Shown piece after piece: positions 19,983 to 24,600 of a DNA stretch of 64,000 bases. A program made the translations under genes and the position numbers. The first letter of the stretch is position 1; every line of letters starts with the position of its first letter. A model generated the notes under the pieces. That model worked only from the letters and a program-made list of their open reading frames with translations, made no database searches and had not been told where the DNA came from. Source of the stretch: Mrakia gelida (lineage: Eukaryota > Basidiomycota > Tremellomycetes > Cystofilobasidiales > Mrakiaceae); assembly GCA_024345305.1 (NCBI GenBank), contig BRON01000006.1:186001-250000 (forward strand), given 5' to 3'.

Positions 19983-21318
19983 ATGTTCGCCTCCCGTCTC
20001 GCTTCTGTCGCCAAGACCGTCCCCGCCAGGGTACGTCCCATCGCCTCCCTCCTTCAAAGAGTCTGGTTCGAGGACTTGTAGGAGTGGAAGGAAGGCGAAA
20101 CCAATCAGCTCACATCTCTCTCATCCCTTCCTTTCTTGTTCCCTTCGTCCCCTCCCCAGGCCTTCTCTTCCACCCCTCGATCGGCTCCTTCTGCTGCCAT
20201 CGTCGGAAACTCTATGCTCGCTGCCTCCGGAGCGTGAGTTCGATCTACCATTATCTTGTTGGAGGATGGGAGGGGAGGCAGGAAGGGGAGGGGGACGAAT
20301 GCGAAAGGGAAGGACGAGCTGACCTTTCTCGTCGGATCGAAATCAAACAGGTTCGCTGCCTACAACCTCAACAACTACCTCAACGAGAAGAACCTTACCC
20401 TCAAGGAGCTCGCTGCCTCCGCCAAGACGTATGTACTCGTTCAGTTCGATATCGGGGAGAAAGGGAAGAGGAGCCGACCTTTGGAGTGAGCTGACCTCGT
20501 CCTCTTCCTTCTTCTTCCCCCTCCTTCCTATCACGTTGTATCCATCCTCCTCGTTCAACCATCCCCCATCGACAACCTCACTCTTCTCTCCACCCATGGA
20601 TACCCAACCGCCTCATCTTTCATCTCCACCACCACCAACTCCCACCCTTTCCTTCTGTCCAAAACTCCTTCGACGAACGCTTTCAGCAACCTCGGATCCC
20701 TTACCACCTCCCTCCTCGCCCACGCCGATGAGGTTGGAGTCTCGTTCGATTCCTACATGGTTCCCGATAACGAGATCGCGGACGGACAACCCCGACTCCT
20801 CGACGTTGACGCTCGAGTCGTCCTCCCCATCGAGACCCACACCAGGTTCATCCTTTCCTCGACCGACGTTATCCACGATTGGGCTGTCCCTTCCCTGGGT
20901 ATCAAGATGGACGCCATGCCCGGAAGGTTGAATCAGACCAGTACGCTCATCGAGAGGAAGGGTAAGTCTCTCCACCATCTATCATCGATTCCGGAGGAGT
21001 TCGGACGGGGAGGAAACAGACGAAGAAGAAGGCAGAGGGACGAGACCGAAACTGACGACCTCACCTCCTCCTCCTCCCTTCCTCTTCGAACAGGTCTCTT
21101 CTTCGGACAGTGCTCCGAGCTTTGTGGAGTCTACCACGGATTTATGCCTATCGGTGAGTCCTTTCTTGTCTGCTTGATTCCGACGGAGGAAATCTCACGA
21201 CTCCTGGGCTGACCGACTCCCTTCGTCTCGTTGGTTCGCTCGTTCTCGCTTCTCTCTCTCAGTCGTTGAGGCCGTTGAGCTCCCCGAGTACCTCGCTTGG
21301 CTTCTTGCCCAGGAGTAG
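19983..21318 (+). CDS. COX2B: Nuclear-encoded C-terminal half of cytochrome c oxidase subunit 2 (CuA domain)
   Basis: Six exons join cleanly (19983-20030, 20160-20233, 20351-20428, 20687-20961, 21094-21153, 21263-21318) into 591 nt, 196 residues. Residues 1-30 look like a mitochondrial presequence ([20 protein letters not shown]). A weakly hydrophobic linker follows ([18 protein letters not shown]). From residue 86 the sequence is unmistakable COX2 C-terminus: [77 protein letters not shown]. The six CuA ligands are present: His130, Cys165, Glu167, Cys169, His173, Met176. The two transmembrane helices and the WYW region of normal COX2 are absent, so the other half must come from elsewhere, presumably a truncated mitochondrial cox2. 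Tryptophan is encoded as TGG and introns are spliceosomal, so this is an adapted nuclear gene, not a stray mitochondrial fragment. MIC60 lies 360 bases downstream. Confidence 0.93.
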
Positions 21319-21675: not shown

Positions 21676-24600
21676 ATGCCTATCTCGTCTTCTCTCGCCC
21701 ACCGGGCTTCGCTCTCTGCTCGCTCTGCTGCTTGCTCAAAATCTTTCCCTCAGGCTCTTAGGGTGAGCTCTCCTCCCTCCTCTCTCGCTCGTCTCCTTCT
21801 TTTCTCGCTCCGAGGCCATCTCTTCCTTCCCCTTCTCCCTCTTCCCCTCGCACTCAAGCTCACCCACCCCCTCCCTTCCCTTTCGTTGACTCTTCTCAGT
21901 CCTACGCGATCCCTCCTGGAGCTACCCCTTCCCCCCTCCCCGCTTCTGCTACGATCCCTACGACGCCCAACTCTGTCGTCCAAAAGCGAGTCGTCCCTAC
22001 AGTCGCGACTCCCTCCTCCCAGGCGAAGACCACCATCCCTGTCGTCCCCGTCGTTCCTCCTCCCTCGGACTCAAACCTCATCACTCCAGCTGAGGTCCAC
22101 TACAAGAAGAAGGGATCCTACAAGGGGAAGGCTGGTTGGATCCTGTTCACCGTGTTCGTCCTTCCTCTCTTCGCTCGCTCGACGACTCCTTCCGAGGACG
22201 TCTTCGTCCTGCCTCTCGAGCTGACCTCACTTCCCTCGTCCTTGATTTGACTCGACTACAGGCTGAACTCGTACATCATCGCCACCTACGTCGCTCTTCA
22301 CAACGACACCTTCGAGGAGATCTACACCCAGTACATCCCAGGAGGAGGAGCCATCTTTGATTGGGCGGACGACAACGAGCTCGATAAGGTCGGAGTCGCT
22401 TCAGCCGTTGATGCTTACAACAAGGTCGCAGAGTGAGTACAGTCTCATCGTTTATATGTTCCCCTTGAAGCTCGCGTGAAGGTGTGGGAGCTGAGGATGG
22501 GGCGCGAGTCGAAGAGTCGAAGGGAGCTCTCAAACGCGGAAGCTCATCTCTCGCTCCTTTTCTTCCTTTCCTCTCCCTTTTCCCCTCCTCCTCCTTTGCC
22601 CTTACAGTACCTCTAAGTCCCTCTACCGAGGCATCACTGGACAGACCTTCGATCCTCCTGCCACCTCCACCAACCCCAACCACTCCTCCGAACGACTCGC
22701 CGCCCTCCAAAAGTCCATGTCCTCCTCCGCCTCCGACATCAAAGCCAAAGCTGCCTCCGCTGCCGAACCCGTCACTCAGTACGCTTCCGACGTCAGGGAG
22801 CGAGCTGCCAAAGCTCCCGCAAGGGACTTCGAGGCTTCCAAGGCTTCGACTCCTTCCAAGGGAGAGGACGCTCGAGCGAAGGCTTTCGCTGCCGTCGACG
22901 ACTCGAAGCTCGTGCTCGAGAGGAAGACCGAGGAGGCTAGGAAGAAGGCTGAGGATGCTAAGAAGGAGGCTGAGAAGGCGGTCGAGGAGGCCAGGAAGAA
23001 GGCTGGAGAGCTCAAGAAGGACGTTGTGAGCAAGGTCACCGCTGCTGAGGTCGCCGTCGAGAAGAAGGCTCACGACATCAAGGAGGCCGTCGTCGAGAAG
23101 GCTCAGGACCTCAAGGAAGCCGTCGTTGGAACTCCTCACTCGTTCGCCGACCTCAAGGAGGAGGCTCTCAAGGGAATCGAGAGCATCAAGGCCGCTGGAG
23201 GAGTCGTCGCCGACAAGGCTGCCGACATCTTCGACGGAGCGAAGGTCGAGACGGAGAAGGCTCGAGCTTGGGTCTGGAGCGAGGGAGTCGAGGATCTCGT
23301 CAACCAGGCTGAGAGTGCTCTTGGATTCGCGAAGGACAAGGCTGAGACCAAGGTCGAGGAGGTCAAGGAGGCTGCTGGTCAGGTCAAGAAGGATCTCGCT
23401 CCCGTCGCTCCTGGAGACAAGGTCGCTTGGACTGGAGGACCTCTCCCTCTCGGATTCGAGCCTCCCCCCGGTTACTTCGTCCCCAAGTCCTCCTCCTCCT
23501 CCCCCAACGGAGACGCTCTGCCTCTCATCGCACCCAAGGTCCAGTCCTTCTCCACCTCGGAACCCATCATCTCCCAACTCGCGTCCACCATCGACTCCCT
23601 CGCTTCCTACCTCTCCTCCCACGCGTCAGGTCCTCAGAAGCTGCCCACCACGTCGTCGTACACCTCCGCCGAGCAGGCCAAGAAGCTCATTGACAACGCT
23701 GTTGGAGACCTTGAGGCTCTCGGAGGGAGACTGCAGAAGGTCCAGGAGGACGCGAAGAAGGAGCTGGAGACGGGGCTGGAGAGGAGGAGGGTCGAGTTTG
23801 AGAACGAGGTGAAGAGGAGGGAGGAGGTTCTGGAGAGTGAGTTGGAGAAGAGGGAGGAGGGGTGGAAGGGTGTTGTGGAGGATGAGAGGAGGAGGTTGGT
23901 TGAGGTGTTCAGGGAGAAGTTGGAGAGGGAGCTTGAGGCTCAGAGTGAGATTATCAACGAGAGGTTAGTCGAACGTCGAACGCGTCCTTTCTTCCACTTT
24001 CCTTTGCCTTTCTTCTCCTTCCTCGCGTCTCGAAGAAACAGAGCTGACCTTGCGCGTGCCGTTTGGCTTTGGTCTGTGGGTTTGAATCGAACAGACTGAA
24101 GGAGGAAGTCCTCGCTCAGGGAATCGAGCTTCAACGTCGGTGGATCCGAGAGATCAAGCTCCAGGTCGAGACCGAGCGAGGAGGACGACTTTCCAAGCTC
24201 GAGGGACTCGAGAAGGGGTTGAAGGATCTCGAGAAGGTCACCTTGGATAACTCGGCTGTTCTCGACGAGAACGTTAAGCTTCACGTACGTCTCGCCCTCC
24301 CTCCTCCCGTCCCCGCTCCTTTGCTCTCTCCTTCTTCTCTCGCAACGCAAATCACCTTTCGCTAACCCTTCCCTCTTCTATTTTTTCTTCCTTGATTGCG
24401 TCCCCCTCTCAGACCCTCTGGTCCGCCCTCCGAGCCGTCCAATCAGCCATCAATACCCCCCGTCAACCCTTCACCACCCAACTCGCCGCTCTCTCCTCCC
24501 TCTCCCCCTCCTCCTCCTCCTCCTCTTCTTCCACCATCTCCACCGCCCTCTCCTCCATCCCCCGCTCCACCTCCTCTCAGGGAGTCGAAACCCTCCCCGA

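Follow-up and report, generated by a model that had tools for sequence, protein, structure and literature searches.

The window, a stretch of 64,000 nucleotides (C6:186001-250000) of the 2,054,456-base contig C6 in the assembly of the cold-loving yeast Mrakia gelida (34,857,517 bases, 25 contigs), carries on its forward strand, at window positions 19983-21318, a nuclear gene for the CuA half of cytochrome c oxidase subunit 2, referred to here as COX2B. Six exons, separated by five introns that all follow the GT..AG rule, join into a 591-nt open frame encoding a protein of 196 residues. In the spliced frame, exon 1 (19983..20030) supplies the start codon and residues 1-16, the N-terminal part of a presequence-like extension, while exon 2 (20160..20233) holds the remainder of that presequence-like part and most of an uncharged hydrophobic stretch at residues 27-45, which continues into exon 3 (20351..20428), a part of the N-terminal extension that gives no BLAST alignment to Cox2. 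Exon 4 (20687..20961) encodes the end of the extension and the bulk of the CuA domain, including the ligand H130; exon 5 (21094..21153) carries the CxExCGxxHxxM block with C165, E167, C169, H173 and M176; and exon 6 (21263..21318) encodes the C-terminal part, predicted to be helical in the AlphaFold model of the Mrakia frigida protein, and the stop codon. The Pfam COX2 family PF00116 matches residues 80-183 (E=1.1e-47; family positions 17-120 of 120), and all six CuA ligands are present; at each of these positions two alignments of relatives, of 20 and 23 rows, show either no variation or a conservation of 90% or more. When the assembly was searched in six frames with PF00116 (E<=0.001), COX2B was the sole gene matched, in two of its exons. 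Directly downstream lies a gene for mitofilin, an inner-membrane protein (window 22495-24099, forward strand; PF09731, E=1.1e-20).

The best match of COX2B is an annotated M. frigida protein, P0001 (196 residues), named Cupredoxin or cytochrome c oxidase subunit II, which is 95% identical over the full length with nine substitutions in 196 positions and no gaps. Seven of the nine substitutions fall within the first 61 residues, and the residues flanking the introns are unchanged at four of the five junctions, the exception being A15S beside the first. P0001 thereby corroborates the gene model independently. The original prediction, made from the DNA letters, of a six-exon, in-frame nuclear gene with a complete CuA ligand set at these residues is thus borne out by the spliced frame, the M. 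frigida protein and the PF00116 match; a chance origin of the gene is excluded.

The N-terminal ~80 residues of COX2B give no BLAST alignment with Cox2, and a search of the assembly for their origin returned, outside COX2B itself, just weak matches (E=0.19 and 0.57). Four basic residues precede the first acidic residue at position 53, and an R-x-F/S motif (RAFS) at residues 16-19 is presumably a presequence-type feature. It had also been predicted that COX2B has no transmembrane helices. No cox2-like transmembrane helix was found in COX2B, and to this extent the claim stands; its unqualified form goes too far, since the stretch 27-45, free of charged residues and of moderate hydrophobicity (mean Kyte-Doolittle 1.15), may form a weak membrane or sorting segment. 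From its residue composition, COX2B may carry a two-part signal that would sort it to the intermembrane space. The AlphaFold model of the M. frigida protein (mean pLDDT 57.4; residues 1-79 below 50) is too poor to support a conclusion on the hydrophobic stretch.

In fungi and animals, cox2 belongs to the core set of mitochondrial genes, and it is almost always a single mitochondrial gene; atp9 is nuclear in some fungi. The remaining half of Cox2 was expected by the original prediction to lie in the mitochondrial DNA (mtDNA), an expectation that failed: the transmembrane half is nuclear too, and present in two copies. PF02790, the Cox2 transmembrane family, matches two further nuclear loci in the assembly, COX2A1 (C6:552170-550207, reverse strand; nine exons, an open frame of 795 nt, 264 residues) and COX2A2 (C1:3134758-3132845, reverse strand; nine exons, an open frame of 768 nt, 255 residues). 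Both encode a long N-terminal extension followed by both transmembrane helices and stop a little past the WYW block, soon after GHQWYWSYEYCDFINS; their Pfam coverage is PF02790 1-88 of 88 plus PF00116 1-21. Nine basic and no acidic residues precede residue 68 in COX2A1, and seven and none precede residue 69 in COX2A2; the best amphipathic moments near the N-termini are moderate (0.31 in COX2A1, 0.34 in COX2A2 and 0.43 in COX2B). An assembly search for the origin of the COX2A1 presequence returned solely COX2A1 and COX2A2 below E=1e-4, followed by eight weak loci, the best on contig C18 (E=0.0087). The two copies are identical at 113 of 128 mature residues. By the Nei-Gojobori method, the mature part has a dN of 0.066 and a dS of 1.007 (dN/dS about 0.07), and the part before the mature region a dN of 0.242 and a dS of 0.666, which shows that the pair is under purifying selection.

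The transmembrane half also recurs outside M. gelida. The M. frigida counterpart of COX2A1, P0209 (132 residues), is identical at 131 of 132 positions and ends at the same C-terminal residue, and was apparently annotated from an internal methionine, without the N-terminal extension. The longest contig given for P0001 has 362,040 bases, as has that given for P0209, and the two are therefore probably on one contig; in M. gelida, COX2B and COX2A1 lie about 343 kb apart on C6. A metagenomic open reading frame, P0121 (155 residues), is a third COX2A-type protein, covering PF02790 1-88 plus PF00116 1-21 only; it joins COX2A1 and COX2A2 at 100/100 in the tree, on a long branch, and to judge by its sequence the frame may run on into an intron at its end. 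Two other short proteins turned up in the searches. P0046, with 146 residues, consists of the CuA part only and carries the label of a Rickettsiaceae MAG; it may stem from another split cox2 or from eukaryotic mtDNA that was binned wrongly. P0289, a metagenomic 122-residue open reading frame with a Cox2 transmembrane domain only, ends in GHQWF on a longest contig of 4.3 kb and may be a fragment or, again, another split cox2.

Aligned to the mitochondrial Cox2 of Cryptococcus neoformans H99 (P0135, 251 residues), the nuclear genes are complementary. COX2A1 covers residues 10-136 (64.6% identical), COX2A2 residues 10-138 (64.9%) and COX2B residues 136-250 (64.3%), so that the halves meet at residue 136, between the transmembrane and cupredoxin parts. 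The way in which the halves abut at this residue would suit a mechanism that rejoins them into one Cox2 polypeptide, by RNA trans-splicing or protein splicing; every gene, however, is complete in itself, from start codon through N-terminal extension to stop codon, COX2B begins with the ~80 residues that do not align with Cox2, and the M. frigida annotation stops COX2A at the same residue, all of which makes rejoining very improbable. No complete or further cox2 was found in the assembly, either with the Pfam profile or with the two halves as queries: the latter search gave 12 matches at E<=1, and all 12 lie inside COX2A1, COX2A2 or COX2B.

Nuclear insertions of mtDNA (NUMTs) seem to be present in this genome, and non-functional copies of this kind might be suspected at COX2A1, COX2A2 and COX2B as well. 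A stretch of cox3 interrupted by two in-frame TGA codons (C8:1516680-1516850, reverse strand), situated by eye inside an apparent other gene, is likely a NUMT. The three cox2 loci, on the other hand, contain eight, eight and five introns, respectively, together with open frames, presequence-like extensions, conserved ligands and low dN/dS, and they have near-identical orthologues in M. frigida; a reading as NUMTs can be given almost no weight. Their identity as such was rejected on the ground that they show open, spliced and conserved frames and not degenerate mitochondrial-code sequence.

The mitochondrial side has in part been described by others. cox1 was not found in the assembly, and the mtDNA is therefore presumably missing from it. 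A 2025 study reported, in its available text, that the mtDNAs of M. gelida PAMC 26583, M. robertii and Tausonia pullulans lack cox2, PAMC 26583 being a different strain from the one analysed here and the first two mtDNAs being linear molecules of 20,924 and 21,508 bp (PMC12749792). Nuclear copies of cox2 are not mentioned there: the main text as available lacks the words "nucleus" and "transferred" and uses "nuclear" once, in another sense (PMC12749792). That COX2A and COX2B are redundant copies, with an intact cox2 still at work in the mitochondrion, gains some room from the lack of cox1, and presumably of this organism's own mtDNA, in the assembly and from other doubtful absences in the published annotation, which was made with MFannot and MITOS: nad3 and nad4L are also called missing, nad3 being possibly fused to nad2, and a puzzling cox6 is listed, so that misses in the annotation are possible, judging from the text at hand (PMC12749792). 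Against it stand the reported absence of cox2 from all three mtDNAs; the fact that a redundant copy would need neither a complementary split nor strong purifying selection; and the finding that, among the 120 matches listed for COX2A1, no full-length Cox2 exceeds 71% identity. We consider redundancy very unlikely, and complete relocation of cox2 to the nucleus remains the preferred reading. atp8 is also reported missing from Mrakia and Tausonia mtDNA in the available text (PMC12749792); PF05933 (ATP8) gave no match in the nuclear assembly, a profile that was likewise silent in 14 of 14 control genomes. In the parts available, a paper on T. pullulans does not name cox2 (PMC11803393), and the Phaffia genome paper mentions mtDNA and uses the word cox2 zero times.

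The origin of the split genes was approached by trees and by similarity scores. The original prediction had placed this DNA in Microbotryomycetes, which is to be corrected, M. gelida belonging to Tremellomycetes, Cystofilobasidiales, Mrakiaceae. In trees built without any algal or alveolate split COX2A or COX2B gene, COX2A falls among basidiomycete-type Cox2, separated by a 100/99 branch from a red algal group, its position within the basidiomycete type being weakly placed. COX2B forms a 100/100 group with two Mrakia-like relatives on a long branch, next to an unstable neighbour group (89/99) of the metagenomic proteins P0002, P0007 and P0009, the first of which may be a chimera, judging by its residues. 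Bit scores against COX2A1 are 201 for Cryptococcus, 144.2 for Vigna, 104.3 for Chlamydomonas and 28.7 for Perkinsus; against COX2B they are 184 for Rhizoctonia, 155.9 for Vigna, 129.7 for Chlamydomonas and 127.5 for Perkinsus. The Vigna plant chain scores on a par with ascomycete yeasts, which counts against a simple fungus-only reading of these values. One public record, P0025, named for the bacterium Prescottella soli, is identical to C. neoformans mitochondrial Cox2 at 249 of 251 residues and is likely a contamination.

The breakpoint and overall architecture are those of chlorophycean algae and alveolates, as far as these are set out in the available text of a 2017 review (PMC5664110), and the split genes might have been gained horizontally from a green alga or alveolate that possesses COX2A and COX2B. 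The placement of COX2A with basidiomycete-type Cox2, apart from red algae, speaks against such a transfer, as do the scores, in which named basidiomycetes exceed Chlamydomonas and Perkinsus for both halves; moreover, no solved structure matched the part of COX2A1 from residue 73 to where the homology with Cox2 begins. Horizontal gain is extremely improbable on this evidence. By the COX2A tree and the scores, the Mrakia split genes are closer to fungal Cox2 than to algal or alveolate COX2A/B, so that an origin of their own within Fungi has the best support.

Comparison with known systems, for which the available passages of the cited papers were used, places the Mrakia genes beside several precedents. 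In the chlorophycean algae Chlamydomonas and Polytomella, as in Mrakia, both halves are nuclear, at separate loci, and are divided at the same breakpoint (PMC5664110; PMC5855863), and Polytomella COX2A has a presequence of about 130 residues (PMC5664110; PMC5855863); the Chlamydomonas chains 9f5x_2B and 9f5x_2C match the two Mrakia halves. The systems differ in that the sequences point to a separate origin of the Mrakia split within Fungi, in that COX2A is duplicated in Mrakia and extends at most four residues past the Cox2 alignment at its C-terminus, as against about 20 in the algae, and in that Polytomella Cox2b lacks a cleavable targeting signal (PMC5855863), whereas Mrakia COX2B has a presequence-type N-terminal extension. 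The alveolates Toxoplasma, Plasmodium and Perkinsus likewise have two nuclear genes with the same breakpoint (PMC5664110). Compared with the M. frigida COX2B model, which is poor outside the CuA core, the Perkinsus chain 9fq8_4N (131 residues, COX2B by size) ranks first; the alveolate sequences are more diverged, as the low Perkinsus COX2A score illustrates, and appear to have a separate origin. In Dielis/Campsomeris wasps, cox2 is also divided into cox2a and cox2b, but both pieces reside in the mtDNA, a nuclear cox2b copy being a preliminary suggestion (PMC5664110). The same review, in its available text, states that recent functional relocations of organelle genes have not been described in animals or fungi and gives nuclear split cox2 for chlorophycean algae and alveolates only (PMC5664110). 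No report of a split or nuclear cox2 in a fungus was found among the literature matches listed, a search over titles and abstract openings with preprints and most subscription journals outside its scope.

Nuclear relocation of cox2 has elsewhere been accompanied by changes in the first transmembrane helix. Legumes moved cox2 to the nucleus with the hydrophobicity of helix 1 lowered (PMC5664110; PMC5855863, available passages), but as a single, unsplit gene. Yeast Cox2 expressed from a nuclear gene requires a less hydrophobic helix 1, for example through W56R, according to the text available (PMC12005268; PMC11917479). As a yardstick, the Kyte-Doolittle peak over 19 residues was computed for 150 full-length Cox2 proteins, presumed mitochondrial, out of 307 fetched. 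Helix 1 peaks range from 1.83 to 2.99 in these relatives (mean 2.48; Cryptococcus 2.65), and the values of COX2A1 (2.35, with 28 of 150 lower), COX2A2 (2.19, 13 lower) and P0121 (1.88, 2 lower) place COX2A1 among the bottom 20% and COX2A2 among the bottom 10%, both within the relatives' range. A narrower set of 66 proteins out of 208, in which 6, 0 and 0 of 66 were lower for COX2A1, COX2A2 and P0121, overstated the signal; it was biased because an ELIW filter had dropped Cryptococcus and other sequences. Helix 2 has no consistent shift (COX2A1 2.18, COX2A2 2.23, P0121 2.27; mean of the relatives 2.21; 16, 86 and 131 of 150 relatives lower, respectively). The residue aligned with S. cerevisiae W56, a position fixed by alignment to 6giq_b, is Tyr in COX2A1 and COX2A2 and His in P0121; of the 150 relatives, 144 have Trp at this position, 5 have Tyr and 1 has Phe, and Tyr is also found in the Komagataella Cox2 (8ucj). 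COX2A1, COX2A2, P0121 and P0209 also have in common two arginines after helix 1, R185 and R187, which 8 and 3 of the 150 relatives possess, respectively. The hydrophobicity signal is weak, and together these changes are no more than suggestive of an adaptation of COX2A to import. Engineered COX2-W56R resembles the Mrakia case in its need for a less hydrophobic helix 1 and in the position concerned, but is unsplit and partly functional, as far as the available accounts go, while Mrakia seems to present a natural fungal solution.

The reading that best accounts for these observations is that cox2 has moved completely to the nucleus in Mrakia, piecewise, as split COX2A and COX2B genes that arose independently of those in algae and alveolates and at the same breakpoint; we put its probability at roughly 0.92. 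This estimate is unaffected by the recount of helix 1, because what it rests on is the complementarity of the nuclear genes and the reported absence of cox2 from mtDNA. The central claim of the original prediction had been that a basidiomycete has, through piecewise transfer, a split COX2 whose COX2B is nuclear; it is supported by the complementary COX2A genes, by the assembly searches and by the mtDNA loss reported in the text available, and the case is stronger than first held, because both halves are nuclear.

The break in the ancestral mitochondrial cox2 would have come after the WYW block and before the CuA domain, and each piece would have become a nuclear gene that has introns and a targeting extension; the piece with the transmembrane helices would have been duplicated into COX2A1 and COX2A2, with cox2 gone from the mtDNA. 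We infer the expression, import route, assembly and activity of the two halves as follows. Synthesis of COX2A would take place in the cytosol. Its N-terminal extension, about 133 residues in COX2A1 and 123 in COX2A2, would act as a long presequence, and the protein would enter through TOM/TIM23 and be inserted N-out/C-out, a passage that the somewhat less hydrophobic helix 1 may ease. COX2B would have a presequence of its own for separate import, and the stretch 27-45 would probably direct it to the intermembrane space; it would be supplied with copper by the usual chaperones and dock non-covalently on COX2A in complex IV.

Because the CuA half would be imported separately, Mrakia may be able to do without exporting the C-tail of Cox2 out of the matrix, and COX18, the dedicated exporter, may have been lost, a proposal that we regard as tentative and on balance doubtful. 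A search for the YidC/Oxa1/Cox18 family (PF02096) found one gene in the assembly, read as OXA1, with sensitivity lowered by short exons and with no fungal control; some 440 bases downstream of the OXA1 match a further, weak one scored 15.1 bits and was taken as the same gene. The Cox2 chaperone COX20 appears to be retained, a COX20-like exon lying at C9:643700-643828 on the reverse strand (PF12597, 26.9 bits against a cut-off of 25). In soybean, where nuclear Cox2 is unsplit, an Oxa2-like gene is kept, according to the available text (PMC5855863).

Loss of cox2 from Mrakiaceae mtDNA is already in print, in the passages available, and the nuclear COX2A and COX2B genes described here explain the published gap in the mitogenomes of this family. 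As a natural fungal counterpart to attempts at a nuclear yeast COX2, they lead to predictions on helix-1 hydrophobicity, on splitting and on the need for Cox18. A further origin of the split, in a fungus and at the same breakpoint, argues for a favoured position at which Cox2 can be cut and yet assemble.
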